Below, piece after piece: positions 25,223 through 54,954 of a DNA stretch of 64,000 bases. The translations under genes and the position numbers were made by a program. How positions within the stretch are numbered: position 1 is the first letter of the stretch; every line of letters starts with the position of its first letter. The notes under the pieces are model-generated. The model had not been told where the DNA came from, searched no databases, and saw nothing but the letters and a program-made list of their open reading frames with translations. The stretch comes from Pogonophryne albipinna (lineage: Eukaryota > Chordata > Actinopteri > Perciformes > Artedidraconidae), in contig CM053243.1 in NCBI GenBank assembly GCA_028583405.1, forward strand, positions 49,425,826-49,489,825. The letters run 5' to 3'.

Positions 25223-25423
25223 TGGCGGACCCGCCATCACTGATAGCCAGTGCCGGCCCTAGACATTTTGGTGCCCTAGGCGAGATTATGATTTGGTGCC
25301 CCCCCCCCCCCCCCAAGCAATACACAATAGAATATATAAAGAATAAATGAAAAATCTCTACAAAAGACCAATACACTACAAAAACAGAAACTTATTGACA
25401 TAGGTAATATACATAAAGGTTTC

Positions 25424-26249
25424 GGTAACACTTTATATTAAGGTACACACATTAACCATCAACTAGTTGCTAATTAACATGCATATTAGCAGTATATTGG
25501 CTATTTATTAGTCATTATAAAACACTTATTAATGCCTTATTCTGCATGACCATATTCTACAAGTAATAAGCCATTAGTTGAGAGTTTTTCCTCAATAACC
25601 CTCTAATTAGTGCTTATTCATTGCAAGTCAGGAAGTTGTTGTACATGAGTTTGGGTCTTAATATGCTCTGCTCAATATGGGCCTAATAAGGCAGTAGTAC
25701 CACAAGAATAGTAATTCTCCCTTAATAACACTTAACAAATATGATCTATTCTTATGTAACAAGACATGAAACTACAAGTGTTAATTGTGTCTAATTAACT
25801 CAAAATATCTAGGTCTTGTTCTATCTAAGCTATATGTTCCCTATTCTAAAGTGAAGTCTTGTTCATAACCAATAAGCTAGTAGTTTGACTCTAATTAGGT
25901 ATTTCTATCTAAGAACATGTTCCCTATTCTAAAGTGAAGTCTTGTTCATAACCAATAAGCTAGTAGTTTGACTCTAATTAGGTATTTCTATCTAAGAATA
26001 TGTTCCCTATTCTAAAGTAAAGTCTTGTTCATAACCAATAAGCTAGTAGTTTGACTCTAATTGACCTGAACAGGTTCCCTATTGTAAAGTTGCCTCCTCT
26101 TCACACTTTGTAAATAGATTATAGCACACAACTACTGAAATTAACCTCAACAGCACATGAACAAAGTAGGCTCACGTTGAAATATCTGTTTTATTCAAAT
26201 GTAACCACTTAAGAGAGGTTCAGACACATCACAAACATTTAAAGTGTCT
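25424..26249. repeat. left terminal inverted repeat of the Merlin-like element (826 bp)
   Basis: It pairs with the right arm, which is split by an L2 insertion into 36,135-36,323 and 42,869-43,334 (again at 48,221-48,409 and 54,955-55,420). Outside the repeat-number difference only scattered substitutions are seen. The inner boundary is at CATTTAAAGTGTCT. The left arm is longer because it contains about three 83-bp units where the right arm has one. Confidence 0.85.
25836..26084. repeat. 83-bp tandem repeat, about three copies, in the left terminal repeat
   Basis: Units begin GTTCCCTATTCTAAAGTGAA at 25,836, 25,919 and 26,002, and a fourth partial start is at 26,074. Each contains ACCAATAAGCTAGTAGTTTG. 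The right arm has a single unit. Confidence 0.9.
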
Positions 26250-26320
26250 TTAATCGTTCAATCGCTTTTCACTGACAGTGTAAATTTGCTATCTGCAACA
26301 TCTGCTACCTTTCACAGGCT

Positions 26321-28663
26321 TCACACTTTATATTTTTTTCTAATGTCATGCAAAAGCATTCCAAGTGGTCCATATCTGTGATGTTTTCCACGCCAGTAAG
26401 TCCACTCAATGACATCCAAATGATCTTTTAACGAACTTTGTGTCCGATTTCCTCTAAGTCTCCAGATAGTTGTCTTGCAAATACCCCAAAATCTCTCTAC
26501 GTTCTGTGTATGTGCACCTGTAACAGGGTCAACAAAAGATTCTTGATGGTTGACAGTCAGGTGATTATAACCTTCGTCCTGAAGCCGGCTGTAAGACCTC
26601 CATCCATCTGAAATGACTGAGCTTCCGTTCTTAATGTGCTTCTTTATGAGAGGCATAAGATGTCTGGCTGAGAATGGGTCTTCTCCTGCCATTTCTGATT
26701 CCAAGCATTCCGAACACCCAGGAACTCCTGTTGCTCGCCCGTCCTCTGTTGTACTGAAAATGACAAGAGTATTATGGAGCAGTGCATGTTTACAAATATT
26801 CAACTGTCCTGAGGTGCAGGAATAACGTGACATTTCCCTTTATGGCATAATTGAACTGTATATCTTATTCCAAAACGCAACAGTCATTTCTCATAGATAA
26901 GGATACTGACACAATTTTACAAAAGGCTACTACAGTATTTAGTTTTGACACACAAAAATTATCCTTCTCTTTGTTCCATGGCAGAACAAATGGTATATTT
27001 ATGCAACCTATGGCCACATAGAGCTGTGGACAATAATGCACAACCACCTGAGCCACAAACAGTGGGATGGGTAAAAGAGGTTTACATACACTTGGAATGA
27101 CTACATTAAAATGGCTCTGTCTGCAGTTTCTTTAAATAAAGAATGTTTTAAAATATTTCCGTAGTGCCTCACCATTGTATATTTCTACATGGAATACTGT
27201 ATGCATTTGTTTTCAATTATTAATCACACAGCAGTGAACTGTTCGAGCATGTTCAGAACAGTTGTTAAAATGCTTTACAATTTACAATACACTCTACTAC
27301 TTTATGTATAATTAGCAATAATAGTCTATGATAGACACAGTGTTATACAGCAGAAATGGTGAAAATAAATGTTAACTTTCTGTGTATTAAAAGTATGTAC
27401 AGTATAGTGTCTCTACATTAAGTAGCTCTGTTAAGGACAGGCTTATGCAAGATCATAGGAAAAAAACTTAATTATGTATTGTTTTGACATCAAGGTAACA
27501 ATCTTAAAGTGTTTGCATAGTTTACACACCTTTCTTTTATGGCCAAATTTGCTTTCATCGATCATAACAACTTCACTTCGTCTTCCAATGGTCTGCTGGC
27601 CTCTTCTTCTCACTCTTCTCATGGCAGATTTACAAACACTCCGCAGCTTGTCTGCGAGCTTAGTCAGAGTTGCAGAGCTACGAGTAATTCCTTCCTGCAG
27701 CATGTCCACTTGTCGCAATCGAAGGCCTTGGGCAAATCTGTAAACAATCCAGTTAGTTAGGAGGGGAGGTTAAACCCAATTTTGAAGTGGTCATGGGTGT
27801 ACAGTACATTTCCATATATACACATTTCATGAATGATTTAGAACCACTCACCTGTAGATGAAATGCATCCATGTTTGCAGTCGCACATGGGAATTCTCAA
27901 ACATGGAGCCACTTCGGATGGACCTTGAATATGTTTTCCCTTTGTGACATGAATCCCGGCACATCCTGATGATTAAACAAATTGGTTGAATAGAATTCTG
28001 ATAAATTAAGTCTAGATTTGTAAGGTGTTGATACATCTAAGACATGGATTGAATATGGCGCAAGTCCTTTGTGTTATTCAACATTTCTAGGTATACTTGA
28101 CAAGAAGAATTTAATCTACAATAATTAACTGAATAAGGAAGATATTTGAGTGCATTTAGTAGTGTTACCACCTTAAAAAGTAGCCCACATGCAAATATAA
28201 ATTATCAGCAGAGTGTGATTTGAATTATGACTTTCTAGGTGAGATTTAGCTGATAATTCCTCCTAATAAAAACAATTAGGTTTAATAATATAAATTATAT
28301 AATAATTTGCCATCAGATATGCATGAATCACATAGGTCACATAATGTAGATTCAAAATGGTGAATGTTTCTGAAAGGTGACAAGTCTGCATCCAACATTC
28401 AGATGAACTTACAGCTACAGAGCTAACAATATGATATGCCCAAAATTAATAAATGAAGCACAGGCTAAGTGTTCTAGCATTACTTACCATGATGCCTCCT
28501 TTTTAGCATAAGGCCGTTTCAACTTCATGACATGAGCACAAGAGGGGCATTTCATTGATTTTCGAAGAAGGCCTTTTTTCATTAACCAGTGGTTGAACTT
28601 AAGGTTTTCCTTGGGGCTCTGCCTAAAATGTATTCGCCTCAAAAACGTGTAATGTGACACCAT
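26321..28663 (-). CDS. Merlin-like transposase (IS1595/ISXO2 DDE family), four exons, frameshifted
   Basis: The exons are 28,488-28,663, 27,852-27,965, 27,530-27,737 and 26,321-26,753. All have GT-AG borders and compatible phases; the total is about 310 codons. Exon 1 has a zinc-ribbon half (KCPSCAHVMKLKRP) and exon 2 the other half (MCRDSCHKGKTYSRSIRSGS). Exon 3 has the first catalytic Asp in VVMIDESKFGHKRK. Exon 4 starts YNRGRASNRSSWVFGM, then has the second Asp in VISDGWRSY and the third-residue block AHTQNVERFWGICK. This order is that of the ISXO2-like domain, which in eukaryotes defines Merlin. In exon 4 the frame changes after RPIL (about 26,660-26,675), before ARHLMPLIKKHI, so a few residues are missing and the product is broken. 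The gene ends 72 bp from the terminal repeat. Confidence 0.85.
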
Positions 28664-28832
28664 ACTTGTAAAATTATCTGAAATAATATTACATTCTCAG
28701 CTATTAACACTCCACAGCGAGGGAGAAGAAATGAAATAGGCGGGACTTACCCTTTGGGAGAATAATGATTGACACTTTTTACTGTCCCCCTCCTATCAAA
28801 ACATCACCACCACTCTTCCTACGATGTCATTG
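28664..28832. promoter_or_regulatory. left part of the central, formerly shared promoter region of the Merlin-like element
   Basis: This lies between the transposase start and the LINE insertion. Together with 32,923-33,432 it formed an intergenic region of about 0.67 kb between two divergent genes. No TATA box is evident. It is inferred as a promoter from gene layout only. Confidence 0.4.
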
Positions 28833-28979
28833 GAGGCAGTCGCAATTTCTACAGGCTCGCACTTACCTGTTAGCATCTGGCATCTGTTAGCATCTGTTAG
28901 CATCTAGCATCTGTTAGCATCTAGCTCTCCTGCTTACAAACTTTTAGCCATCTCTGCTTATACAAGTAGTAGTTTTAGT

Positions 28980-29235
28980 TGTCTGCGATCTGCGGAGGCC
29001 TACTCCCACCTGTCGAGTACGGCTGTACTGAGGTGTTTTTCCTCCGGAGACGGAGCGAAGAGACGGAGCGGCTCCACCTGTTGCTGCCTGCGATCTGCGA
29101 TTTACGGAGGCCTGCTCGTCGCGAAGAGACGGAGCGGCTCCACCTGTTGCTGCCTGCGATCTGCGATCTGCGATCTACGGAGGCCTGCTCCCACCTGTAG
29201 AATACGGCTGTACTGGAGAGGTTTTTACTCCGGAG
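28980..29235 (+). repeat. tandem units in the LINE 5' UTR
   Basis: CTGCGATCTGCG, GGAGGCCTGCTC, GAAGAGACGGAGCGGCTCCA and CCTGTTGCTGC recur two to three times. Repeated 5' UTR monomers are typical of internal LINE promoters. Confidence 0.7.
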
Positions 29236-29498
29236 TCGTCGCGGAGAGACGGAGTGGATCCACGCTTCGGGCTTGGCCTGCTTCCACCGGGCGTGTGCTG
29301 CTGTGCGGAGGAGGATTTTACCACCGCTGGGGCCTGCTTTTCACCTGTCCTGGTTCTGCTGTTGCAGAGGCCTGCTTTCACCCAGGGGATACCACGGAGG
29401 GACCGGAGCGCTTCCACGCTGCTGTTTTCGCCTGTCCTTTGCTGCTGTGCTGATTTTGCTCCAGGAACATCGCGGATTCTGTGTGCTGGTCTGGGGAA

Positions 29499-32400
29499 AT
29501 GGCCCATATCGGGATTCTGCTGTGCCTGTTAACTGTTTTGGACTGTGAGAAGTTCTCTAGTCATTCTGAGAAGTCTACTGGATTCAGGTCTGTTCTGCCA
29601 CCCGCAGTGGGCATCCCCTGCAAAGGTTCGGATGTGTTGCACAAACAATTACCGGTTGCTTTGTCACAGACAATCTGCTCGACAAAATATGTTTGTCTTT
29701 TTTGTTTTCCTGCGATGATGGTTCTTCAGGACTGCTTCTTAAGCTCAAATCACACTCTCGCAGACTTTTCCGGTGTTTCTAAATTAGATGACAATGTATG
29801 TGTGTCGTTTAAGAGGAAAAGATGCCTGTTTTTGTTGTTGTTATTACTGTCAGGAAATGTACAACCTAACCCTGGTCCGCCCAGTAGTAGTAGTCAGATC
29901 GCTACTCCTGCTGATTTTAAAGCTAGGTCTGGGTTGGGTTTCATCCACTTGAATGTGCGCAGTCTGTTAGGTAAACTAGATTTTGTCCGTATCTGGGCGA
30001 GTTCGACTGACGCTGACGTCATTGTTTTATCAGAAACATGGCTAAACAAATCTATTTTGGCCTCTGACATTGCCTTAAATGGTTATAATGTGTATCGTAC
30101 CGACCGGCCTAATAAAGGTGGTGGCGTTGCCATTTATGTTAAGAATAAGTTCAGTCTATCCACATTAGTTTCCAAATCTATCAGTAAGCAATTTGAATTT
30201 TTAGCCTTAAATATAGAAGTGGCAAAGGGTCAACAGGTCATGGTGGTGGGCTGTTACAGACCCCCCTCAGCTGTCAAAGACTCCTTGTCTTCACTAGCAA
30301 ATCTTTTATCGCAACTAGACTACAAGGAAATAGTGCTACTTGGAGATTTTAACTGGGACTGGTTAACTACAGTATCAGAGGATTTTAAAAACCTTTGTAT
30401 CTCTTTGAATGTTACTCAGATTGTTGACAGTCCTACTCGCCCTAACATTAAGCCCCCTAATAAATCCTCCCTAATTGATGTCATTTTAACTAATGTTCCC
30501 CATAAATACTCATCTGTGGGAGTATTTGCAAATGATCTGAGTGATCACTGTGTTGTAGCCAAAATTAGGGACACTAAGATCCAAAAGGTTAAACCTTGTA
30601 TTATCATCAAGAGAGACATAAAACATTTTGTGGAGCAGGGTTTTGTTCATGATCTGTTTGATTTTGATTGGGGTAAAATCGATCTGTGTGCTGATGTAGA
30701 AACCGCATGGTCTTATTTTTATCTTGGTTTTATGGAGATCATTGATAGACATGCACCCCTGCGTACATTTAGAGTGAAGGGACGGGACAATCCTTGGTTT
30801 TCTGCTAATCTGTCCAGTCTCCTTCATGAGAGAAACAAGGCCTGGGCAAAGGCTAGGAAATCAGGCTCAGAGGTAGAATGGCTGCATTTTAGGCAGCTAA
30901 GAAATAGCTTCACTTCACATATCAAAAGTGCTAAATCAAAGTACTATCTGTCAGTTCCCACAAAGAACCTGAATAATCCTGGAAATTTTGGAAAGCCATT
31001 AAATCGTTATCCACCGGCGATATCTGAAATGAGCTACCTCCGTGCATTACCACAGCATCTGGCACTATATCGGACAGGGCTACTATGCTAAATTGCTTTA
31101 ATGAGCATTTTGTGTCCTGTGGTTCTCTATTTGATTCTGTCACTAACTCTGCTTCTGTGAACACTACAGTATGTGACTCTGAAAAACGTGTGTTGGAAAA
31201 CCCTTTTAGTTTTACCCCTTTTACTGTTGATGTTGTTCGTGAAGCTTTAACCAAGTTAGATCCTAAGAAACCGGCTGGCCCGGACAACGTAGAACCTTTC
31301 TTTTTAAAGATAGCTGCAGATTTTATTGCTCCACCTCTCACTACTCTTTTTAACCTCTCCCTCAGCTCAAACAATTCCAAAATTGTGGAAGTCAGCGTAT
31401 GTCCTGCCTTTGCTAAAAGGAGGGGAGGCCACTTATTAAATAACTATAGGCCAATCTCTAAGTTGTAGTTCTGGCTAAGGTTCTTGAACGCTTAGTGAGT
31501 GAACAGGTAAAGGTGTTTTTATGTACAAATGACATCCTGTCTAAACATCAGTCAGGCTTCAGAAAGCAACATAGCACCATCACTGCCACAATGAAAGTGG
31601 TGAATGATGTACGAGTATTTAGATAATAAGCAGAGTTGTGCAGCTCTATTTATTGACCTTTCAAAAGCGTTTGACACCGTCGATCATCACATTTTAAAGC
31701 AGAGGCTAGCCAGTATAGGCATGTCCAGCCATGCAGTGGGTGGTTTGTAAACTACCTCTCTGAAAGGTCCCAATGTGTTCATTTTGATGGGCTGTCTTCT
31801 GAGTGGTTGAACATTGCAAATGGTGTTCCCCAAGGTTCTGTTTTAGGTCCACTTTTATTCTCCATCTACATCAACAGTTTAGGTGAAAATGTGGATGAAG
31901 CTACTTTACATTTTTATGCGGATGATACCGTGATGTACTGTGCAGGTCCCTCCATTAGGAGGCTGGTGTTAAATTACAGGCTGTTTTTAACATTATTCAG
32001 ACTCAGCTCTCTGAACTAAAGCTTCTTTTAAATGTTGATAAAACCAAGGTAATGCTCTTTTCTAAAGCTAAAAAGACACCAGAGCCTGTTTTAGATATTG
32101 TAACTACGCAAGGAATAAAACTTGAAGTGGTTACCTGTTACAAATACCTTGGTATCTGGCTTGATGATTGTCTCACTTTTAAACTTCATGTCAATAACCT
32201 GCTTAAAAACTGAGGGTTAGGCTAGGTTTCTTCTACAGGAACAAGTCCTGTTTCTCGCTTGAGGCCAGGAAAAGGCTAGTCACTTCGACCTTTTTACCTG
32301 TGCTGGACTATAGTGATTTGATGTATATGAATGCACCTGCCAATTGCCTGGTCAAGTTAGATGCCGCCTATCACAGCGCACTGAGATTTGTGACAAACTG

Positions 32401-32769
32401 TAAAGCATTAACCCATCACTGTACCCTGTATGCAAGGGCTGGTTTGCTTTCACTAACTGTACGGAGGCTCAGTCACTGGTACATTTTTATATACAAAGCC
32501 ATGTTAGGGAAACTTCCATCTACATCTGCTCCCTGATCTCACGGAAAATTGTAAGTGGCTACTGCCTGAGATCGAATGCTGTGGTTTTATTAAATGTGCC
32601 AACTGCTAGGACTGTCTTAGGGAAGACAGCTTTTAGATGCGCAGCTCCTCTGTCTTGGAATAGTCTGCAAATTAAATGGAAACTGAACAATCTGGTGCCA
32701 CTAAATGTTTTTAAAGCTCGGTTGGATGCTAGTCAATCGGAAGCTATTGGTACCTGTTTATGTGGATAA
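29499..32769 (+). pseudogene. LINE ORF: signal-like leader, 2A-like motif, endonuclease, reverse transcriptase (several frameshifts)
   Basis: From the ATG at 29,499 (MAHIGILLCLLTVLDC, hydrophobic) the frame is open to 31,091. At 29,811-29,880 a basic-hydrophobic stretch (KRKRCLFLLLLLLSG) precedes NVQPNPGP. Endonuclease motifs follow: GFIHLNVRSLLGK, LSETWLNKS, GGGVAIYVKN, LGDFNWDW, SLIDVILTN, DLSDHC. The RT continues in other frames: LNNYRPISKL (31,430), FIDLSKAFDTVDHH (31,650), NGVPQGSVLGPLLFSIYINS (31,820) and catalytic FYADDTVMYC (31,912). C-terminal motifs lie at 32,300-32,760. At least four frame changes (about 30,990-31,090, 31,465, 31,620-31,740, 32,010) show it is dead. Confidence 0.85.
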
Positions 32770-32922
32770 TTATGTAAATGATGCTGTATGATGTCCTTTT
32801 GTTGTTCTATTTATGTTTTTATGTTTCATGTGGAACTACTTGAGCAGGTCTCCCTTGAAAAAGAGATCAATGATCTCAATGGGATTTATCTGTATAAATA
32901 AAGGTTTGAAATGAAATGAAAC

Positions 32923-33432
32923 AAAGCGATCCACCAATCCATGTTCTCATCTGTCTAGCCGCCGGTTACTTCCGCTAACAGCGAAGCTCCGGAGGCGAAG
33001 TCCCGCCCATCTACTTCCGACCTATGGGACCTTATTATTAACAGTTCACGAGCATGTCCCCCCCCTTCCCCACCCGTTGACAGTGCATGAGCGTGCTCTC
33101 TGTCCCCGCCCCCCCCCCCCCTGGTTTTTCAACTACATTCATTCGTTTGGCCAAGACGTTTAAATGTATGGATTTTATTGCAGCGGTTTGACTCTGATAT
33201 TGTGGAAACATGTGTTTTAGGATAAGTTTTGGCGTAGTTTAAGTTTGACAGGGCAGTAACGTAGAGGGGAACGGGAGTCACCTGACAGGTTGCAAACGGC
33301 AAATTCATCCAATCTTTCACTATCATATTAAATCCTCATCCAATCAGCAAAAATAAACTGCCTGCTAGTTTTTGGCCTCTTCCACTTGCCTTGGAGCTTG
33401 AAGAGGAACATTGGAAATGTTGTGCATCGAAA
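32923..33432 (+). promoter_or_regulatory. right part of the central promoter region, upstream of the CCDC106-like gene
   Basis: GC-rich stretches, two long C runs (about 33,057-33,067 and 33,108-33,121) and an inverted motif (reverse complement of GAGAGCACGCTCATG, 33,078-33,102) lie here. It is bounded by the LINE end and the CCDC106-like start codon. A near-identical copy is at 45,008-45,517. Confidence 0.45.
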
Positions 33433-35941
33433 ATGGTAAGTTACGTGCTTTGCTTTCTTATTTTTGTATTAATTGTATTGTATTTGTTGAAAATGCTCTC
33501 TTTCATGTGCACTCTGGACCTCTTTGAATTGTGTGCTTAATAAAGTCATTATTACCAACTCACGTTGTTGGCCTCGTTAGCTCAATATCGTCATGTAACT
33601 TACCCACTACTTGGCTGTATAATTCCTATAATGTTCATTATTGTTAGTCCATAAGTTAATAGGGACCCATTGCTTTTCAAAAGTAAATTATAGCTATCTT
33701 GCAAGCCGATTAAACATTGTACTTAATCACCACAGCCAACATTAGCCCCGCTTCAGAACGGAGAACTTGCTAGCTAGCTAACAACTGGCGCGAAGGCACG
33801 TGGTTATCTTTTACTTGGTTTAACCCTCGGGTCAGTCGCTTTCATTTGGCCAGCTCGCTGCCTTTTAGAGTCATGTTTGTGCACTCTAACTGTTATCCAA
33901 TGTACATATTCAGCCTTTTACACAATATTTAATAGCTTTATTCTTATTTTTTTTACAGCCTAAGGCAAAGAAGAAGAATCAGGTCCCAAAAGAGGAGTCG
34001 AGGATGGAGTTGATCAAAGAGGATCTAGATGGTAAATTGTATATCCCTTAACTAAGAAGTACAACTTAAATAATTTCCTTGTCAAACTTGATTTTAACAT
34101 TCATGTCCTCTATTCATTTTGTGAGTTTATTGTTCTTATGCCATAGGTCCTGAATATACAGAAAGCTTGGCCCCAAGTTGCAGTTCTAGCCTTGGATCAG
34201 GTGATTTATTTTTTCTTGCATTGATTCTTTGTGTTGGTAGTTTATAAACATGAAACTATATGGCTCGTTCATCCTGAGATGGAAATTGTTGCCAGATTTA
34301 GCCCATGCACCTCCTTAAGTTATGGTAAAAAATTAACAGCTCGTCAAAATTCTGAGACTGTATACAATTGTACGACTTGAGACAATTCACTTCAGTAGCC
34401 TTCCAAGGACAAATGTAAGCTTAAAGAGAACCCAACATGTAAATAAATGTTGCTGTTATATTGTGCTTTATAGAATAAAAGCACACATCGCCTCCATGTT
34501 CATGTTTGGCCACTCAATGATACATTTACATATTCACAACATAGTGATCACTAATACATAAAAAGTGTAGTTTTTCCTTACCACTGTGCATGCTCATGTG
34601 GGTAAAAGTTGGGTCTCTGTAAACTGTAAGTACAGTCTTGACCTGCTCTATAGGAAAAGTTGCGATTTGGAGCTGCAAAGAAATACTTGTAATTTAATTC
34701 ATATCTGATCATTAATATGACAAACAGTGGTGATGATAAGCAGTACACTGTAACTGACATGGCCGATGTTGACTAGGGAAACCACATATTATCTGTTGTC
34801 TCTTTTGGGAGAGGGGAAGTGGATAATTGTATACATTTTTTATTTTATCGGCTGCTACTTTATGGTTTTAAAATCCTTGAGGTTCATCAAGTTAAGGCAC
34901 AAACCATAATCGCAATCATCTGTGTTCGATCTGGCCCATGACCTTTGTTACTCGCCATCCTCTCTCTGTCTCTCCAATAAGTTTCCTGTTACTCAAGACT
35001 GTATCATAATCTTTATTGTAATCTTCTCTCAAACTGTCCTTTTGTTTTTTAAGGATCAATCTCAAGATTGGAATTCCTAGAGACCAAGATCGAATGGCAA
35101 GATAAAATGATAAAAGATCTTGGAAGAGAGCGCAATTTCTTACACGAGCAAGTCTTGGGGTTGAAGAAGAAATCAAGTGAGTGATTCGAGAAGAAACTGC
35201 ACATTTGTATTCAATTGTTATAGAAGGTGTGATGTTATGTATCTCCTCATAACAAGCTGATCAGTGTGTCATCTGTCATCCGTTGAATTTAAGCTCAATC
35301 AAAAGTCCTTACTTTGGAAGAGGATGTCAGCATGTCCGAAGATGACACTTCCCAAATTCCTGCAGACCTCAGTGATTCCTCAGACAGTGATGTTGTCATC
35401 CCAAAAAAGAAGCAACATAGCATACGGAATCCTGCATCTCCAGATGCGGCTGTGCCTGGGCGAGCTCATATGAGAGGTGAACAACTAAATATCATGAAAA
35501 GTAATAATGATAAAGATCAGATAAGCAGATGTTGCCATCCCTAGAGTATGCTTTATAGTTATTTTTAAAGAGAAATGTCAGTTGTTTAGGCCATTCTTAG
35601 CGCAATCTGCTGGACAGAATTATTAGTCTGTGTACTCATCCCTTGTGTATTTGTTTGTTTTTTCCAGTCAAAGGGCCAGCGGAGGTTGTCCATACTGTAG
35701 GTACAAAAAGGTCCTGAAAACCTTCGGACGCGTTCGCACAATGTCTGAAGCCTTCAGGATAAATAATGTGGATCGGGGAACCATAAAGATGACTGCTCCA
35801 ATTGCAGAGCTCAAGATTGTGGACCCAGACACATTCAAGACCCTCAAGTTTGATCCTGCAATAGACACCCTGCTTTCATTTGCCAAGAAGTGTGCAAGAA
35901 GTGTGCAACAAATGTTACCGTCGATAGAAAGGCCAAAATAG
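33433..35941 (+). CDS. CCDC106-like coiled-coil protein of the Merlin-like element, copy 1
   Basis: The exons are 33,433-33,435 (ATG only), 33,959-34,031, 34,147-34,200, 35,054-35,176, 35,306-35,476 and 35,668-35,941. The first five joins are GT-AG and in frame. The start is PKAKKKNQVPKEE. Exon 4 is a coiled coil (FLETKIEWQDKMIKDLGRER). Exon 5 is acidic-serine then basic (SDSSDSDVVIPKKKQ). The last exon has RYKKVLKTFGRVRTMSEAF, then NNVDRGTIKMTAPIAELKIV and FDPAIDTLLSFAKKC. The Arg-Tyr-Lys-Lys start, the Val-Asp-Arg block and the Pro-Ile-Ala-Glu-Leu block are those of vertebrate CCDC106, a nuclear protein. Two problems exist in the last exon: its phase does not fit the acceptor at 35,668 (one at 35,685 would fit), and an 11-bp duplication shifts the frame at about 35,892. 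The role in transposition is inferred (DNA-binding partner). Confidence 0.8.
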
Positions 35942-36134
35942 AGGACATGAAAGCCAAAGGCAAGCTTCTTCCCTTGCTGATGAAGTATTAAAGGGCTGGT
36001 TTTATCGGTTTAGATAAGGTGTACTGGAAGAGTTGTATATTTAAATGTGAGTTTAGTACCCTCAAGAGCAAGTTCAGCTTTTATATTTACCTATCTATTT
36101 TTATTAAAAAGTACAGGTGTGTTGTGAGCCTTGG

Positions 36135-36323
36135 AGACACTTTAAATGTTTGTGATGTGTCTGAACCTCTCTTAAGTGGTTACATTTGAATAAAACAGAT
36201 ATTTAAACGTCTGCCTACTTTGTTCATGTGCTGTTGAGGTTAATTTCAGTAGTTGTGTGCTATAATGTATTTACAAAAGTATGAAGAGGAGGCAACTTTA
36301 GAATAGGGAACCTGTTCAGGTCA
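36135..36323. repeat. inner part of right terminal inverted repeat, copy 1
   Basis: It is the reverse complement of about 26,070-26,249. It contains the CCDC106-like poly(A) signal (GAATAAAACAG at about 36,189). It stops at CAGGTCA where the L2 LINE begins. Confidence 0.85.
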
Positions 36324-36519
36324 TTTTGAGGCAAGACAAGACAAGTTTATTTATATAGCACCTTTCAACACAAGGCAATTCAAAGTGCTTTACAAAAAAT
36401 GAAAGACATTAAGAAAATGGCATTTAAAACCAGTCATTAAAAAGAAAAGATAATAAAATAAACATTAAAAGAAAAAATACATGGATAAAAGTTACAGTGC
36501 AGTTTAAGATGTAAATAGT

Positions 36520-38518
36520 TCAATTAAAAGCAGCGGCAAAAAGAAAAGTTTTCAGTCTGGATTTAAAAGTACTCAGAGTTGCAGCGGACCTGCAGGTTTC
36601 TGGGAGTTTGTTCCAGATATTTGGAGCATAATAACTGAACGCTGCTTTACCATGTTTAGTTCTGACTCTGGGGACAGAAAGCTGACCAGTCCCTGAAGAC
36701 CTGAGAGATCTGGATGGTTCATAATTTAGCAGGAGGTCAGAAATGTATTTTGGGCCTAAACCATTCAAAGCTTTATAAACCAGCAGCAGTATTTTGAAAT
36801 CTATTCTTTGACACACAGGAAGCCAGTGTAAAGACTTCAGAACAGGAGTGATGTGATCCACTTTCTTAGTGTCAGTGAGGACTCGAGCAGCAGCGTTCTG
36901 AATTAGCTGCAGCTTTCTAATAGATTTTTTAGTGAGACCTGTGAAGACACCATTACAGTAGTCCAGTCTACTGAAGATAAAAGCATGGACAAGTTTTTTC
37001 CAAATCCTGCTGTGACATTAGTCTTTTAATCCTAGATATATTCTTTAGGTGATAGTATGCTGATTTAGTAATTATTTTAATGTGACTGTTGAAACTCAGG
37101 TCAGAGTCCATGACTACACCTAGATTTCTGGCTTTATCTGTTGTTTTGAACATTGCAGACTGAAGCTCAGCGCTAACTTTTATACGTTCTGCCTTGGCTC
37201 CAAAAACCATTACCTCAGTTTTATCTTTGTTTAATTGGAGAAAGTTCTGACACATCCAGTCATTGATTTGTTCAATGCACTTACTCAGTGTTTGAATTGG
37301 AGCATAGTCTCCTGGTGAAATTGTTATGTAAATTTGTGTGTCATCCGCATAGCTATGGTAACTTATTTTGTTGTTTTTCATTATCTGAGCCAGTGGTAGC
37401 ATGTAGATGTTAAAGAGAAGAGGCCCCAAGATGGAGCCTTGAGGTACCCCACATGTCATATTTGTCAACTCAGATGTGTATTTACCAATAGAAACAACGT
37501 TTTTTCTGTCCTTTAAGTAGGATTCAAACCAATTTAGAACTGTTTCCGAAAGTCCCACCCAGTTTTCTAGTCGGTCGAGTAATATGTTGTGGTCAACAGT
37601 ATCAAACGCAGCACTGAGATCTAATAATACTAACACTGAAGTTCTGCCACTGTCTGTGTTTAAGTGGATGTCATTGAAGACCTTTACAAGAGCAGTCTCA
37701 GTGCTGTGGTTTGGACGAAAGCCTGACTGGAACATATCGAAACAACTATTTAAATGCAAGAAATTACTCAACTGTTGAAAAACAACTTTTTCAATGATTT
37801 TACCTAGAAATGGGAGGTTTGATATGGGCCTGTAATTGTTCATTACTGAAGCATCTAGATTATTATTTTTTAAGAGCGGTTTAATGACTGCAGTTTTCAG
37901 GGCCTGTGGAAAAATACCTGAGTGAAGAGATGTGTTTACTATATGAAGTAGATCTGAGGCCATGCAACGAAAAACATCTTTGAAAAATCCGGTTGGAATA
38001 ATATCAAGGCAGCAGGAGGAGGATTTCAGAAGTTGAATAATGTCCTCTAGGTTTTTATCATTAATCTGATGGAATTGTGTCATGGTGTTTGAATTGATAT
38101 TAGGTGGACATAGGGACAACACATTTGCTGTACCTGATGCAGAGGCACTGACTGCTTGTCTGATTTTCTGAATTTTGTCAGTGAAGAAGGAGGCAAAATC
38201 ATTGCATAGAAATTCAGAGGCTACTGACACTGGGGGGTTAGTTAGTCTGTCGACGGTAGCAAACAAGGCACGTGCATTGTTTTTGTTTTTGGTAATGATG
38301 TCAGAGAAGAAAGACTGTCGTGCGTTTTTCAATTCCAAATTATAAAGGCCAAGTCTCTCTTTATAGATTTCAAAGTGAACCTGGAGATTTTTTTTTCGCC
38401 ACCTACGTTCAGCTTTTCGACACTCTCTTTTTTCTGCTCTCACGGTCATGGCCTTTTTCCATGGAGATATTTTCTTCCCAGTCACTTCCTTTACCTTAGT
38501 TGGAGCAATGGCATCTAT
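36520..38518 (-). pseudogene. L2 ORF2 reverse transcriptase, copy 1
   Basis: It contains [94 protein letters not shown], catalytic [12 protein letters not shown] and [16 protein letters not shown]. An extra T in the run at 36,991 shifts the frame after MSQQDLEK, so the C-terminal part ([14 protein letters not shown] ... ) is in another frame. The copy in unit 2 lacks this extra T and is open to its end. Confidence 0.92.
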
Positions 38519-39546
38519 AACATTTTTGAATTAAAATGATCTACTAGCTCATTTACTAAAATGTTAGCAGGGGCAAGTGTGGAAGAAAAATTCTGAGTAA
38601 ACATTTCCCTAGTATTTTCAGTTAAATATCGCTTTGTGGTTACCTCTTTTTGAACATTTTTGTGAACAGAAATAGAGCTCTCAAAGAAAACACAGGAATG
38701 ATCAGAGAGTGCAACATCAGTCACCACAACCTCAGAGATATTCAGACCCTTTGAGATAATTAAGTCCAGAGTGTGCCCCTTATTGTGCGTGGGCTCCGTC
38801 ACATGCTGAGTCAGTCCATAGTTATCAAGAACACAAAACAGTTCTTTATCCCCTCTGTCCTGGGGGTTGTCAACATGGATGTTAAAATCACCAACAATGA
38901 CTAGACGGTCAAAGTCAATACACACTATAGACAGCAGTTCAGTAAAATCATTAGAAAAGCTTGCACAGTATTTGGGTGGTCTATAGATATTTAGGAACAG
39001 AGCTCGAGAGGAGCATTTCAGCTGAAGGGCCACATATTCAAAAGAAGCAAAGTTCCCATAAGATGTCTTCCTGCATTGAAGGGAATCATTGAACAGAATA
39101 GCAACTCCACCCCCTTTCTTATGCATTCTTTCCTGACTCATAAAACTAAAGTTGGGAGGGGTTGATTCAATAAGAACAGCTGCACTGTTATTTTGTTCAA
39201 TCCAAGTTTCCGTTAAAAACATAAAATCAAGATTGTGCTCAGTGATAAAATCATTGATTAAAAATGTTTTTCCTGCCAGAGACCTGACATTTAATAAAGC
39301 TAGTTTAAGTTTGTTAGATACACTATCAGTAAGATGTTTTGTGACAAGCTGTGGCTGACATGGAATCACTGCTAAATTTGATAAAGTCACACAAACGTTT
39401 GAGCACTTCCTGTTTCTAAGCTGATTCACCGCTCTTAATCTATTACCTATCAACACAGATATCGGCAAAGCTACTGGCAGGCAGGGCCCCGGCATGTCCT
39501 GGAAAGAGTTGAGAGTGCCATACGCCCTTGAGCCTGGACCCAGCAC
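38515..39546 (-). CDS. L2 ORF2 endonuclease domain, copy 1
   Basis: Open for 343 codons. Motifs: LALLNVRSLAGKTFLINDFI, LTETWIEQNN, GGGVAILFND, IYRPPKY, VGDFNIHVDNP (active-site Asp and Asn present), HTLDLIISKG, VALSDHSCVF. It stops at NSKML because, compared with L2 copy A at 10,280, seven bases are missing in the linker; the RT frame therefore starts separately. The same deletion is in unit 2. Confidence 0.88.
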   Translation of the reverse strand: MLGPGSRAYGTLNSFQDMPGPCLPVALPISVLIGNRLRAVNQLRNRKCSNVCVTLSNLAVIPCQPQLVTKHLTDSVSNKLKLALLNVRSLAGKTFLINDFITEHNLDFMFLTETWIEQNNSAAVLIESTPPNFSFMSQERMHKKGGGVAILFNDSLQCRKTSYGNFASFEYVALQLKCSSRALFLNIYRPPKYCASFSNDFTELLSIVCIDFDRLVIVGDFNIHVDNPQDRGDKELFCVLDNYGLTQHVTEPTHNKGHTLDLIISKGLNISEVVVTDVALSDHSCVFFESSISVHKNVQKEVTTKRYLTENTREMFTQNFSSTLAPANILVNELVDHFNSKML

Positions 39547-40008
39547 ATATCAGTAAGAGTTTGTTGCGTTTTGTACACACACATCCTTATCAGGCTTCGG
39601 AGACTGCAGATGCTTTCTTGAAGGGAGGGGAGGTGGTTGACGTAAGCACGGTGATGGAGATGGTGCGGGGGTAAAGGACATGCTGCCAGGGGGGGGAGGT
39701 GGTTGAAGTAGGCACGGTGATGAAGACGGGGGAGATGGTGCGCGTCTCTGCGGTGATTTTGGTGGCCGTCGTTGAGGAGCGGTGGTAAAGGACATGCTGC
39801 CAACCCTGCGTATCGCCTTAGTTTGGTCTTTGAACTTCAGGAAGGAATCGGTGCCATCCCTCTGTATCTCCTTCGTGTGTGCAGCGATCTCCAGGAGGGT
39901 GGGCGAGGGTGAAAGGGTGAATGGAGAGTAGAGAGAGCTGTGGGGTGAAGGAAGAGTATCCTCAGAGGTGATAGGAAGCGTGAGACAGGTGCAGGTGCAG
40001 AGCCTCAC

Positions 40009-41345
40009 CTGTCATTCTCCAATGTAACGGAAAAAAAGAATAATAATACAAATAATAATAATAATAAAATGTGTCCACTGATCTGTGTTGTAAATGTGAT
40101 TTCTGTTTGATTCCAATCGCTTTTTATAGTAAAAATCGGCTAATTTGCCGAGCTCCGCTACAACTACGGGGAGCGATGAGATTGAGAAGTGAGGCAGGGA
40201 CGAGCTCTGCCTCACAGAAGCCCACAGTAACTGGCTGGAGCACGGGCACTAATTTAGCGCGGGCACTTATTTTGTGAGCGCGCTCAAGCCAGTTACTGTG
40301 TGGTGAGGTGAGGCACAGATGAGCTCTGCCTCACCTCAGAATGCGTCACCCCACAGAAACTGTCTGGAAAGCGGGCCCTAAGCGCATGCCTGCACCATCT
40401 CACTGTATGTTACCAATGTAATGTTTGTAGATCCCTTTATTACATGTGTCCTCGCCATCCATAGTCTCTAAATAACTTATTTCACGTATAAATGATATTT
40501 AAGCTCGCTGGTCTCATCATACAACGGCAATGAAAAAAGCACCAGGGGAGGCAGCCACAACCTCTGCCGCACTGAAGGGGGCGCAAGTGAGCCCACAGGT
40601 TCTTGTTGCTACTGTTATTCTACGCAGAGACGGTAGACGAAAACAACAAGCTAGGCTTTTGAAACTAGAGGAAGATAAGGAGGACTTTTACAAAAAAGTA
40701 ATAAAGATTGTTGTCCAGAAGGATAGCATGGACTTCATCTTCAAGTCAAGGTAAGACCCCAATTGTAATGAAAATTGGATCTTACTAAGAGAGAACAATC
40801 CAATATTTAGATTTTGGGTATCCTTTTGTTGAACGGTCCGTTTAAAATGAATCGAAGCATCAGACTAAAAAGGCTTTTGAAAATAACAGAATATTTCGAT
40901 TAAAGGTGGGCTAGGTAAGTTTGAGAAACCGGCTCGAGATACACTTTTTGTTATATTCCATGGAATGTTATTAACATCCCGATAGCAATGAATATCTGAA
41001 GTGCTTTGACAAAAAATACATAAAAACATTTCATCTGTGGAAGCCGTAGTACTGTAAAAAGCACGACCACTCATTTTAGCCGGCCCGGCTAAAATAACCT
41101 GCCTGTCAGCCTTCCATCTGTGCACAAACTTATCTCGTGCCCTCATTGGTCATGTGCACGTTCGTGTGTGTTGGAGGAGGGGCTGTGTATTTTCAAATTC
41201 TCGCGCACTCGAGCTGGTTTCTCCCTTATATATATATCTCCAAAATTACCTACCCCACCTTTAAGGTCAAAATATATAATATTTGTAAATCTGACTCTGA
41301 AAGAGTCAGTGCCTCACCAGCCATGAACCTCACCGCACGTCACTG
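40009..41345. mobile_element. transposon nested between L2 ORF1 and ORF2, copy 1
   Basis: The right end, read inverted, is CAGTGACGTGCGGTGAGG, a terminus of the hAT kind. The left end near 40,009 is not resolved. Inside are CTGCCTCACC palindromic phrases (40,190-40,350), an open segment with a GT donor (40,530-40,751, MKKAPGEAATTSA... ending FKSR|GTAAGA) of unknown function, and a TTAA MITE. L2 ORF1 coding resumes on its right side. Confidence 0.5.
40904..41260. mobile_element. 357-bp TTAA MITE, copy 1
   Basis: The left end AGGTGGGCTAGGTAAGTTTG and right end, AGGTGGGGTAGGTAATTTTG on the minus strand, are inverted. TTAA flanks both sides (40,900-40,903 and 41,261-41,264). The TTAA duplication points to a piggyBac-type mobiliser. 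Confidence 0.82.
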
Positions 41346-42601
41346 GTGATAGGGGGGTGAAGGGCAGTGGGGACTCCTCCATTTGTCTCCCATAATCAAG
41401 ACATTCCTCAGGCGGGTGCAGTGATAGATTTTCAAGGTTTTCTGAGCGATGTGTTGTGTCTTTCTCTTGTTTTGATTCCTCTTGTTGCTTGTCCTTGGCA
41501 GAGGGAACAGATTGATGACTAGGCAGTTGAATACGTTAGAGATAAACAATTTCACTCCTGACTTGTTCAGGCAAACTCCATTTGCCTTAAAAAGATGTCT
41601 GCGGTCCCAGAAAAAGTTAAAGTTGTCAATATAATTGACCGAATGGTCAATACAGACAGTTGAAAGCCAGGTGTTCAGTGCAAACAATCTGCTGAATCTC
41701 TCCACTCCTCTTTTGACTGGCGGTAGAGGGCCACTGATGAACACCTCTGCATTTAGAGAGCTGACATTTAAAGTCTTCTTTCAGCACTTCTGATTGTTGT
41801 TTCACAACATCATTTGTTCCAATGTGCAGTACCACATTCTTCACAGTCGGATGTTCAGCCCCAATATGCAGGATCTTCTCAGCCAAGTCAGAGACCACAT
41901 CCTTGGGAAAACAGAGTACTTTGGTGTTGTTCTTACTACACAGACTTTTTACATCTCTTACAGCAGAGTCACCCACAATCAGAGTTTCAGGCCCAGTCGT
42001 TAGCTTTCCCTCTAGCCTTTTACTTTTGGAGTAGCTATTGGTCCTTACCCTGCTGTGTGAAGAGGACAGGTTATCCAGGTCATCAGAAAGAGATCTCCGG
42101 TTCTGTGTCAGCGGAGCGTATCTGTTCTGGATTGGCACACTTGGTGGTTTAGGAAGATTGTTTGTAATTCTCCCTTTAGCAGCTGTCCACTGCTGTTTCC
42201 TAGTATGAATAGGGGTTGAAGAGGCGCTCTTCCTGGGTGATAACAATGCAGGCCAGCCGGTCGCATCACAGATTTCAGAGCGCTGGGCTCTGCCTGTTGT
42301 TCGTCCTCCCAAATCCCATGGAAATGATTTACTCTTCGGCCTTGCACCCAGAGAGTTCCAGGGAGGACTACCACTTGTAGATTTATTACACACAGCCCTC
42401 CTGTTCCTTGGAATCCTTGTAGCTGCTAACTAGCTTTGAGTTAGCATGCCTTTGTCCATTATTTTGCAACACTGGTAAAGTGGTGTCATTCCAACCTAGT
42501 CCATTCACTTCCACGTTAACTTCCAACCGTTGCATTTTCATTTCCAACACGGCCATCTTCTGTAGAAGTTTGTGGAAGTCATCTGTAGAGAACGGAGGCA
42601 T
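41346..42601 (-). pseudogene. L2 ORF1, SGNH esterase-like, copy 1 (frameshifted)
   Basis: The N-terminal frame starts at MPPFSTDDFHKLLQK (42,601) with a coiled-coil segment (MAVLEMKMQRLEVNVEVNG). The frame changes near 42,390, then runs to 41,647 with TLIVGDSAVRDVKSLC and VVLHIGTNDVVKQQ (GDS and GTND blocks). It changes again near 41,740 to VFISGPLPPVKRGVERFSRL and LFKANGVCLNKSGVKL, the final esterase block. It is the same kind of protein as at 14.7-15.6 kb but without the Pro-Ala repeat expansion. Confidence 0.8.
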
Positions 42602-42868
42602 TTTGCTGCTAACTAGCTTAAGCTAAATAGCATGCCAGGCTTTAGCTGTTGCCAGGCCACGCTACTGTAAGACTGAGGTCGTCGTAAAAATATTGAAATA
42701 TGGCTGAAACCCTCCGTCTATTTACGAAGAATAACTGTCCCAGTGATAGGTTAATGTCCAGGAGCCGCTGCTCGAAGTTTTCAGAAAAGAAAAATAGAAA
42801 AACAGCATAAAAAAGTAAGCAGAGGCAAGAGCAAGCAGAAAAGCGTCTGCACTGTAAGAAGGCTACAC

Positions 42869-43334
42869 ATTAGAGTCAAATTACTAGCTTATTGGTTATG
42901 AACAAGACTTCACTTTAGAATAGGGAACATGTTCTTAGATATAAATACCTAATTTTTAGTTAATTAGAGACAATTAACACTTGTAGTTTCATGTCTTGTT
43001 ACATAAGAATAGATCATATTTGTTAAGTGTTATTAAGGGAGAATTACTATTCTTGTGGTACTACTGCCTTATTAGGCCCATATTGAGCAGAGCATATTAA
43101 GACCCAAACTCATGAACAACAACTTCCTGACTTGCAACAAATAAGCACTAATTAGAGGGTTATTGAGGAAAAACTCTCAACTAATGGCTTATTACTTGTA
43201 GAATATGGTCATGCAGAATAAGGCATTAATAAATGTTTTATAATGACTAATAAAGAGCCAATATACTGCTAATATGCATGTTAATTAGCAACTAGTTGAT
43301 GGTTAATTTGTGTACCTTAATATAAAGTGTTACC
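42869..43334. repeat. outer part of right terminal inverted repeat, copy 1
   Basis: It is the reverse complement of the outer left repeat, starting at ATTAGAGTCAAA and ending AAAGTGTTACC at 43,334. It holds one 83-bp unit where the left arm has three. The target duplication AAGGTTTC follows. Confidence 0.9.
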
Positions 43335-43859
43335 AAGGTTTCAAATGTATTCATTATTGTATGAACATGTTTTAATTGGGGGGTGGATGTCACATCCTCT
43401 AGGGGGGTCCGGGGGTACTTTTTAAAGTAAAATGCTTCAATCTGGTGCACTTTGAGCACACAATTACTAGAGACCTCATAGGAGGTACAACTCTAAAGCA
43501 CCCATATGAAAAAGATCGGTTTACATTTTAAAAACCAAATAAGTATGTGAACATAACCATTAACCTACCGTAGCCAATAACAAATAAATGTAACATATTT
43601 ATTTATTTTATCCTTATTATTAATATTGTAGTTATTAAATGAAAATCACTCATCAAACAAAAGTAGCTTCTCTTAAAACTTTAAGAAAATAAAGTGCAAA
43701 CGTGGACACAAATATAGCCAACGGAGCTCTTACAACTGAGGTTATTGCAAATAAATTAAGATAATGAACAACATTACACACACTATAAATCAAATGAAAC
43801 AGGCAATCAGAACAACAAGTCTCTGCTATGTTATTGTGTCCTTTAATTAGTCCACTTCC
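43335..43859 (-). other. hAT 3' region, unit 1
   Basis: Non-coding sequence between the Merlin end and the stop codon of the hAT transposase; AT-rich, with no feature recognised. Unit 2 has the same at 55,421-55,945. Confidence 0.6.
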
Positions 43860-44888
43860 TTAAAGTCCGACACGTCTGGACTTCCTTGCTGCAAATTCAT
43901 TTATTGTATCGTCAAATGATATTTGCCCCGAAACCTCGCGATTGATGCTTATTAAAGCTAATTCATTGAGGCGTTCTTGAGCCATTGACGACCTCAGGTA
44001 TGTTTTAATGAGCTTCAATTTGGAGAAGCTCCTCTCCCCAGCAGCAACTGTCACTGGAATAGTGACAGCGATCCTGAGGGCCACCCACATATTTGGATAC
44101 ACTTCGTTCATTTTCTTCTCCTGTAGGAAAGTCAGAAGTTCCAGGGTGGTCATGTTGGCTTTTGGCAAAGCTGGGAAATTCTGCATCTCCAGTGCAAGTT
44201 CCCTCTTATCCAGGTCTGACTGTCCACCCCAGCTCAGGGTGTTGCTGAGTGTTTCACACTGCTTCGTCAGATCTTCCTTTGGCAGGTCAGGGAAGTTGAG
44301 TAGCACCCCAAACTTTTCCTCTACTTCACCTAAGGCCTTGAATCTCTCCTGCAGTGATGCAATGGAAACATCCACCACCATATTGAAAAAATAAACTTTG
44401 AGTTTCTTTAGTGCATCACTCACTTGCTCCTCCGGGGACTCATAGGAGAACTGTCTCTTGGTTGTTCTCAGCCTCTTCTGCTTGAGAACAGCTTCCACAT
44501 TCATTTGGCCACAGATGTCTTTGGCAGATGTTTGGGCAGAAGCAAATCCATTGCTTCTGTAAATGACCAAAGAAACTTCTGTTTTTCTCAGGAGGTCAAC
44601 AGCAATATCCAGCTGCATTGACACTGATTGCAACATTTTGCTGACATGTTTGATGTTGGTCAGGATGTCATACCATACCACAGTGCATATTGCAAATCGG
44701 TATGATCCAACCTCTTCAGTCAAAGATTGTGCCTCAATTTTTACAACTCCATCTGTGGCTTTATCCCTCACCTCTAGAAGTGCATCTCTGACTTCTGCAG
44801 CCTGATACCTTACAGCCTCTATGCTGTTGATCCGACTCTCCCATCTGGTATCAGACCATGATTTCAATGTGATGTTCACATGGCTTTT
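43860..44888 (-). pseudogene. hAT transposase C-terminal part, truncated by the duplication junction
   Basis: It is identical in reading to the C-terminal 343 codons of the full gene at 55,946. It includes the hAT dimerisation block (VTIPVTVAAGERSFSKLKLI, KTYLRSSMAQERLNELALIS). It lacks the zinc finger and the first catalytic parts because the tandem duplication broke it at 44,888 and joined it to a LINE 3' UTR. Confidence 0.92.
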
Positions 44889-45517
44889 GTTCTATTTATG
44901 TTTTTATGTTTCATGTGGAACTACTTGAGCAGGTCTCCCTTGAAAAAGAGATCAATGATCTCAATGGGATTTATCTGTATAAATAAAGGTTTGAAATGAA
45001 ATGAAACAAAGCGATCCACCAATCCATGTTCTCATCTGTCTAGCCGCCGGTTACTTCCGCTAACAGCGAAGCTCCGGAGGCGAAGTCCCGCCCATCTACT
45101 TCCGACCTATGGGACCTTATTATTAACAGTTCACGAGCATGTCCCCCCCCTTCCCCACCCGTTGACAGTGCATGAGCGTGCTCTCTGTCCCCGCCCCCCC
45201 CCCCCCTGGTTTTTCAACTACATTCATTCGTTTGGCCAAGACGTTTAAATGTATGGATTTTATTGCAGCGGTTTGACTCTGATATTGTGGAAACATGTGT
45301 TTTAGGATAAGTTTTGGCGTAGTTTAAGTTTGACAGGGCAGTAACGTAGAGGGGAACGGGAGTCACCTGACAGGTTGCAAACGGCAAATTCATCCAATCT
45401 TTCACTATCATATTAAATCCTCATCCAATCAGCAAAAATAAACTGCCTGCTAGTTTTTGGCCTCTTCCACTTGCCTTGGAGCTTGAAGAGGAACATTGGA
45501 AATGTTGTGCATCGAAA

Positions 45518-48027: not shown

Positions 48028-48220
48028 AGGACATGAAAGCCAAAGGCAAGCTTCTTCCCTTGCTGATGAAGTATTAAAGGGCTGGTTTTATCGGTTTAGA
48101 TAAGGTGTACTGGAAGAGTTGTATATTTAAATGTGAGTTTAGTACCCTCAAGAGCAAGTTCAGCTTTTATATTTACCTATCTATTTTTATTAAAAAGTAC
48201 AGGTGTGTTGTGAGCCTTGG

Positions 48221-48409
48221 AGACACTTTAAATGTTTGTGATGTGTCTGAACCTCTCTTAAGTGGTTACATTTGAATAAAACAGATATTTAAACGTCTGC
48301 CTACTTTGTTCATGTGCTGTTGAGGTTAATTTCAGTAGTTGTGTGCTATAATGTATTTACAAAAGTATGAAGAGGAGGCAACTTTAGAATAGGGAACCTG
48401 TTCAGGTCA
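48221..48409. repeat. inner part of right terminal inverted repeat, copy 2
   Basis: Same as 36,135-36,323. It ends at CAGGTCA where L2 copy 2 begins. Confidence 0.85.
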
Positions 48410-48605
48410 TTTTGAGGCAAGACAAGACAAGTTTATTTATATAGCACCTTTCAACACAAGGCAATTCAAAGTGCTTTACAAAAAATGAAAGACATTAAGA
48501 AAATGGCATTTAAAACCAGTCATTAAAAAGAAAAGATAATAAAATAAACATTAAAAGAAAAAATACATGGATAAAAGTTACAGTGCAGTTTAAGATGTAA
48601 ATAGT

Positions 48606-50570: not shown

Positions 50571-50599
50571 TTCCTTTACCTTAGTTGGAGCAATGGCAT

Positions 50600-51631: not shown

Positions 51632-52093
51632 ATATCAGTAAGAGTTTGTTGCGTTTTGTACACACACATCCTTATCAGGCTTCGGAGACTGCAGATGCTT
51701 TCTTGAAGGGAGGGGAGGTGGTTGACGTAAGCACGGTGATGGAGATGGTGCGGGGGTAAAGGACATGCTGCCAGGGGGGGGAGGTGGTTGAAGTAGGCAC
51801 GGTGATGAAGACGGGGGAGATGGTGCGCGTCTCTGCGGTGATTTTGGTGGCCGTCGTTGAGGAGCGGTGGTAAAGGACATGCTGCCAACCCTGCGTATCG
51901 CCTTAGTTTGGTCTTTGAACTTCAGGAAGGAATCGGTGCCATCCCTCTGTATCTCCTTCGTGTGTGCAGCGATCTCCAGGAGGGTGGGCGAGGGTGAAAG
52001 GGTGAATGGAGAGTAGAGAGAGCTGTGGGGTGAAGGAAGAGTATCCTCAGAGGTGATAGGAAGCGTGAGACAGGTGCAGGTGCAGAGCCTCAC

Positions 52094-54687: not shown

Positions 54688-54954
54688 TTTGCTGCTAACT
54701 AGCTTAAGCTAAATAGCATGCCAGGCTTTAGCTGTTGCCAGGCCACGCTACTGTAAGACTGAGGTCGTCGTAAAAATATTGAAATATGGCTGAAACCCTC
54801 CGTCTATTTACGAAGAATAACTGTCCCAGTGATAGGTTAATGTCCAGGAGCCGCTGCTCGAAGTTTTCAGAAAAGAAAAATAGAAAAACAGCATAAAAAA
54901 GTAAGCAGAGGCAAGAGCAAGCAGAAAAGCGTCTGCACTGTAAGAAGGCTACAC

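Follow-up and report, generated by a model that had tools for sequence, protein, structure and literature searches.

Does the CCDC106-like gene that lies inside a Merlin element at positions 25424-43334 of the window (the whole analysed stretch of 64,000 nucleotides from Pogonophryne albipinna) belong to that transposon, or did it arrive there by another route? Merlin elements are, to our knowledge, generally described by their transposase alone. In our main reading, to which we assign a probability of roughly 0.77, the element is a decayed Merlin of notothenioid fish, of a kind that had two genes and was presumably autonomous at one time; its CCDC106-like protein would have been an accessory subunit.

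The element is a Merlin with long GG-starting inverted repeats, an exact 8-bp target duplication and two genes. The terminal sequence GGTAACACTTTATATT is located at 25424 on the plus strand and at 43319-43334 on the minus strand with 0 mismatches between the two termini, and the duplication AAGGTTTC lies directly outside them (25416..25423 on the left, 43335..43342 on the right). Both features of the original prediction were thus re-found, whereas the inverted repeat, given there as 16 bp, is actually 826 bp long and position 26249, named there as a terminus, is the inner edge of the left repeat. GG-starting inverted repeats and a target duplication of 8 or 9 bp, here exact, mark the element as a member of Merlin. 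The left repeat (25424..26249, plus strand), which starts with GGTAACACTTTATATT, contains a unit of about 84 bp three times in tandem (about 25819-26062). The right repeat consists of an outer part (42869..43334, minus strand, 96% to positions 1-472 of the left repeat) and an inner part (36135..36334, minus strand, 95% to positions 628-826), 25424-26249 pairing with 43334-42869 and 36334-36135. Between the repeats the two genes diverge from the middle of the element and each faces one repeat, as had been predicted, their coding parts ending about 70-150 bp before the inner repeat edge. One AATAAA is found inside each repeat, at 26190..26195 on the minus strand downstream of the transposase gene, for which it probably serves as polyadenylation signal, and at 36189 on the plus strand in the inner part of the right repeat.

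The transposase gene (26320..28663, minus strand) comprises four exons at 28663-28488, 27965-27852, 27737-27530 and 26753-about 26320. Its match to Pfam DDE_Tnp_IS1595 (E 4.4e-13, 49.9 bits versus a cut-off of 27) bears out the predicted four-exon ISXO2-type transposase on this strand and specifies it as IS1595-type. By eye, the DDE catalytic residues are present in the translation of this frame-broken copy within IDESKFG, SDGWRSY and HTQNVERFW, which correspond to the DDE block motifs; the protein presumably also has a putative zinc ribbon and helix-turn-helix of its own, again judged by eye. The six-exon CCDC106-like gene predicted on the plus strand was likewise confirmed (33417..35992; exons 33417-33435 with the ATG at its end, 33959-34031, 34147-34200, 35054-35176, 35294-35476 and 35668-35992, the limits of exons 1 and 5 being refined by eye). 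With X placed at the frame breaks, its translation matches Pfam CCDC106 (PF15794) with E 3.1e-26 and 93 bits versus a cut-off of 30.2. The CCDC106-like protein is predicted to form a coiled coil and, at its C-terminal end, a helical domain. Intact proteins of this kind exist in fish, for example P0006 of Tautogolabrus. In the first of two models LEAFY was the one family standing out by fold for the helical domain; the LEAFY match was missing among the second model's results, and a profile comparison of LEAFY with the domain gave no sequence kinship. The likeness to the DNA-binding domain of this plant protein is one of fold only and is treated as a lead.

Both genes of the element are frame-broken: exon 4 of the transposase spans two frames with a break near 26,670, while in the CCDC106-like gene it is the last exon that is disrupted, spanning three frames with breaks near 35,694 and 35,895. 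Furthermore, two LINEs are inserted in the element, one between the two genes (about 29481..32915, plus strand, endonuclease frame 29481-31091, outer limits approximate) and one splitting the right inverted repeat (36335..42868, minus strand, with reverse transcriptase and endonuclease frames whose domains were shown on the duplicated copy). The length of the element without them is therefore estimated at about 8 kb. As assembled, the sequence also has a 12,087-bp tandem duplication (32802-44888 / 44888-56974, 99.96% identical), which was absent from the original prediction and may be real or an assembly artefact. The second copy of the duplicated stretch (44888..56974, plus strand) contains the CCDC106-like gene again at about 45502-48078 and the right repeat up to 55420, yielding a third element end with the same AAGGTTTC outside, at 55421.

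In the Pogonophryne albipinna genome, all eight loci found for the element's CCDC106-like family adjoin this repeat on the 3' side of the gene, and in the seven loci with the edge preserved the inner repeat edge follows 135-169 bp beyond the end of the coding match. CCDC106-like copies lacking these repeats, which had been named as a check on the two-gene reading, were thus not seen among the eight. Both genes occur in the same divergent layout at four of these loci (25424-43334, C4:11.69M, C3:5.60M and C14:32.49M). Target duplications were read at seven loci with both ends located, four with gene remnants and three without genes; six showed exact 8-bp duplications, all different, and the remaining one agreed in 7 of 8 positions. 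Among the first 100 listed ends of this first family, 24 end pairs within 30 kb were obtained, two of them holding the transposase, both together with the CCDC106-like gene, and 22 holding neither gene. The element at 25424-43334 and the copies on C3 and C14 possess both ends, the transposase and the CCDC106-like gene. The expectation that the transposase does not occur without the CCDC106-like gene held among the end-paired elements; two unreadable transposase fragments of the element's type (C10:35.89 Mb and C18:8.80 Mb), which had no CCDC106 match within 30 kb, may be exceptions. Further CCDC106-like loci (C4:17.72M, C9:34.94M) and pairs (C6:1.31M, C9:38.98M, C12:32.59M) were recorded by coordinates only, except for the short loci L023 and L033.

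Another family of CCDC106-like genes, whose identity to that of the element is about 34%, was found adjacent and divergent to a Merlin transposase, with the terminal motif as in the first family. Its protein scores 101.9 bits with PF15794, and its transposase, 53-56% identical to that of the element, represents a distant Merlin. The end of this family is GGTAACACTTTACAATAAG, and an exact end lies less than 3 kb away on the 3' side at seven of nine CCDC106-like loci. Thirteen end pairs were obtained, of which three hold the transposase, each with the CCDC106-like gene in divergent orientation, and ten hold neither. At six transposase places beside an end of the second-family type (on C8, C17, C18, C6, C4 and C16), neither a CCDC106 match nor an exact partner for that end was found within 30 kb; single-gene or decayed copies therefore exist.

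A search of this one genome with the Pfam models gave at least 82 Merlin transposase places and at least 29 CCDC106 loci. An IS1595 match was located within 30 kb at 10 of the 29 CCDC106 loci listed, in divergent orientation in all ten cases, versus 0.13 expected for uniform placement; the ring from 30 to 230 kb around the CCDC106 loci contained three pairs with an IS1595 match. With transposase P0025 as query, a match was obtained near 12 of 31 loci, all divergent, where 0.19 were expected. For 72 of the 82 transposase places listed, comprising all families, no CCDC106 match was found within 30 kb. From the repeat-adjoining loci, the second family and the genome-wide excess we conclude that the CCDC106-like gene is, with near certainty, an integral second gene of these Merlins. 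The two-gene Merlin of the original prediction is strongly supported by the same-layout copies at independent sites and by the second family with the same pairing. These copies were all read in a single genome, and the evidence from other species is indirect.

Produced along with the transposase, the CCDC106-like protein could act as an accessory subunit. Its predicted coiled coil may provide dimerisation or bridging, while the helical C-terminal domain might attach to the long repeats with their tandem units; once bound there, the protein would assist end pairing, transposase recruitment or nuclear entry, by analogy with the Myb-like partner of PIF/Harbinger. A role as DNA-binding partner of transposition is proposed tentatively on the basis of the predicted coiled coil and helical domain, at less than even odds, and our confidence in it was lowered because the second model lacked the LEAFY match. 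Furthermore, if the putative zinc ribbon and helix-turn-helix of the transposase are real, it may manage without a partner. The gene could instead be integral yet non-essential, a passenger or regulator tuning transcription of the element or meeting host silencing outside transposition, which we consider quite possible, if somewhat short of even odds. Such a role is consistent with a gene that is retained in two families yet absent near many transposase copies, and with host CCDC106, described in the available portion of PMC10713525 as a p53 partner and suppressor of p21 transcription; however, copies with both ends and a transposase keep the gene (all three such copies of the second family; 25424-43334, C3 and C14 in the first), suggesting, on small numbers, that selection acts on the mobile unit as a whole.

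Taken alone, copy 25424-43334 with its nested LINEs and duplication could suggest a one-off capture, either a chance pick-up of host CCDC106 or a separate gene-carrying element nested inside. This is very improbable, as it is contradicted by the recurrence of the layout at four independent sites, the repeat adjoining the gene at every one of the eight loci found, the identically arranged second family with its end pairs, and the AATAAA in the repeat at the end of the CCDC106-like gene. That two kinds of copies, both common in this genome, meet by accident has a negligible probability in view of the ten loci observed against 0.13, their single orientation and their shared ends.

The two-gene reading also bears on vertebrate CCDC106, which belongs to the same Pfam family (PF15794) as the transposon gene and shares its last intron. 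This intron, in phase 1, is common to both transposon families and two host-like ccdc106 genes, while the intron pattern of a third host-like gene (L025) is not clearly the same. Near the host-like genes at C15:7.96M, C18:10.87M and C21:14.63M no Merlin transposase match was found within 30 kb, and the element's repeat gave no match within about 1.5 kb. In a tree of CCDC106-family proteins the deep forks had no support. With this pairing, the question of where vertebrate CCDC106 came from becomes testable. The 'CCDC106-like' genes scattered through fish genomes would be explained as cargo of transposons, which can mislead counts of gene families.

PIF/Harbinger elements produce a 3-bp target duplication. 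Membership of the element in that group is ruled out by its Pfam IS1595 and CCDC106 domains and its 8-bp duplication. With the Merlin superfamily, as described in the accessible sections of PMC8101967, it shares the DDE_Tnp_IS1595 transposase, GG-starting ends, 8-bp duplications and inverted repeats of sometimes considerable length, for which the summary of Feschotte 2004 given there states 24-462 bp; it differs in its second, spliced and divergent CCDC106-family gene and in its 826-bp repeat with tandem units. The same sections are consistent with the transposase-only description of Merlin and report one extra frame, judged accidental, in a Symbiodinium family, where it overlaps with the transposase. 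No report of a Merlin paired with a CCDC106-family gene was found in the open PMC literature. In PIF/Harbinger, a DDE transposase is likewise combined in one transposon with a small helical DNA-binding-domain protein, which binds the ends and helps nuclear import of the transposase (available text of PMC9179366), DNA binding being a proposal for our element; the transposase family is another one and the partner is of the Myb/SANT instead of the CCDC106 family. It is an unlikely extension that fish Merlins are a second, independently evolved two-component system with a coiled-coil, DNA-binding and possibly LEAFY-like helical partner, that the vertebrate p53 partner CCDC106 was domesticated from it, and that many of the fish genes listed in databases as 'CCDC106-like' belong to transposons. 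With a second gene retained in two distant families, these Merlins lend themselves to studying why certain cut-and-paste transposons depend on a partner protein.

At 25424–43334, both genes were found as the original prediction had described them: a transposase of four exons with a DDE_Tnp_IS1595 domain on the minus strand and a six-exon gene with a CCDC106 domain on the plus strand, both of which are broken in this copy. The proposed ends GGTAACACTTTATATT were borne out and the flanking AAGGTTTC was likewise found at both sides; the inverted termini are present, and their extent had been put far too short, the left repeat (25424–26249) measuring 826 bp. The right repeat consists of an outer part (42869–43334, 96% to the left repeat) and an inner part (36135–36334, 95%) with a LINE between them (36335–42868), and a tandem unit of about 84 bp occurs three times in the left repeat and once in the right. 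The coding sequence of the transposase ends about 70 bp, and that of the CCDC106-like gene 143–147 bp, short of the inner boundary of the adjacent repeat, each repeat containing an AATAAA (26190, minus; 36189, plus). A second LINE lies between the two genes (endonuclease frame 29481–31091). The whole Merlin is nested in a hAT element, whose end, judged from its motif, presumably starts at 25248 and whose transposase frame (58369–55946, 807 aa) carries DUF4371 and Dimer_Tnp_hAT domains.

Because 32802–44888 is repeated, as assembled, at 44888–56974 (12,087 bp, 99.96% identical, two mismatches and three gaps), a third Merlin end occurs at 55420. One breakpoint falls within a LINE and one within the hAT transposase gene, and the repeat may be a real duplication or an assembly artefact. 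The reverse transcriptase frames in the two copies of the LINE that splits the right repeat are unequal (36968–39546, 505 aa; 48606–51631, 654 aa).

In the 1.07 Gb genome of Pogonophryne albipinna, whose contigs are denoted by C and a number (the window lies on C2, 50,992,350 bases; C3 has 47,603,259 bases; M, Mb), profile searches gave 35 matches to PF15794 (CCDC106), grouped by hand into 29 loci, to which the window contributes a single one, and 82 to PF12762 (IS1595-type transposase), 29 and 82 being lower bounds. An IS1595 match was located within 30 kb of 10 of the 29 loci, compared with 0.13 expected under uniform placement, and all ten pairs were divergent; three pairs were found in the ring of 30–230 kb. 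Seen from the transposase, 10 of the 82 places had a CCDC106 neighbour within 30 kb and 72 had none. With the transposase P0025 as query, 12 of 31 CCDC106-like loci (11 of 30 before one further locus was added) had a neighbour, all divergent (expected 0.19). Besides the pairs of the two families described below, three divergent pairs, known by coordinates, belong to other families (C9:38.97–38.98M, C6:1.31–1.34M, C12:32.59–32.60M).

The 16-base window-type end occurs 547 times (control 1) and the 34-base end 211 times (control 0); therefore most copies are gene-less. The window-type CCDC106-like gene was found at at least eight independent loci, leaving out the window's duplicate, and the window-type repeat adjoins its 3′ side at all eight, each of which was read. 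Four of them carry both genes divergently (the window, C4:11.69M, C3:5.60M and C14:32.49M), with the transposase against one repeat and the CCDC106-like gene against the other; at C4:11.69M the outer left repeat was not found. At the other four (C20:12.998M, C4:0.665M, C1:27.66M, C113:0.306M) no transposase match lay within the 20 kb read. Of the 11 loci read, 7 yielded both ends, three of the seven being hand-chosen gene-less end pairs. Six are flanked by exact 8-bp duplications (AAGGTTTC, GGATAAGT, AAAGTTTC, ATTTTATC, TTTTCCAG, AAATGTTT; chance at one site with equal bases 1.5e-5) and the remaining one by TGATTTTT/TGATTTTC. Among the first 100 listed ends, 24 pairs lie within 30 kb, two with both genes, 22 with neither and none with the transposase alone. 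Two window-type transposase fragments (C10:35.89M, C18:8.80M) had no CCDC106 match within 30 kb.

The genome also has another CCDC106-like family, which shares about 34% identity with the first and comprises nine loci. Between two of these, the common DNA stops exactly at GGTAACACTTTACAATAAG, one differing at the next base; this end occurs 67 times (control 0) and lies, exact, less than 3 kb on the 3′ side of seven of the nine. A Merlin transposase, 53–56% identical to the window type, was found within 30 kb of five of the nine, always divergently. Judged by match coordinates, 13 end pairs within 30 kb comprise ten with neither gene and three with the transposase, all three of which hold the CCDC106-like gene (C1:46.09–46.11M, C5:30.20–30.21M, C407:11–24 kb). 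Six ends of this type (C8, C17, C18, C6, C4, C16) had a transposase and no CCDC106 match within 30 kb, and none of the six had an exact partner end. The subterminal region of one copy (L038:2008–3158, a short stretch of this genome) is dense in direct and inverted repeats, a possible hairpin or binding-site array.

Two protein searches returned 24 and 65 CCDC106-like proteins, all species-named ones being from fish. Dissostichus eleginoides has six entries on contigs of six sizes, one Tautogolabrus cluster represents 17 sequences, and in Gouania transposase and CCDC106-like protein both lie on a contig of equal size; these entries show dispersal, not linkage. The Pogonophryne albipinna protein P0009 has the same frame break as the window gene and is probably its gene model; P0018 is a second protein from this species. 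The Dissostichus protein P0024, named inositol trisphosphate receptor, includes part of a CCDC106-like transposon protein and is likely a gene-model fusion.

For the three multi-exon host-like CCDC106 genes (C15, C18, C21), the surrounding 30 kb on either side gave no match to a Merlin transposase. Two of the three share with both transposon families the last intron (phase 1, ahead of the same domain; the preceding G inferred for host genes and second family), the pattern being indistinct in the third, and host and transposon genes therefore look like homologues with a common spliced structure; the tree gives no order of origin between them. Without sequence kinship to LEAFY, and with the match absent from a second model's results, the modelled C-terminal domain of the intact Tautogolabrus protein P0006 (residues 133–239) resembles in its predicted fold the DNA-binding domain of plant LEAFY.
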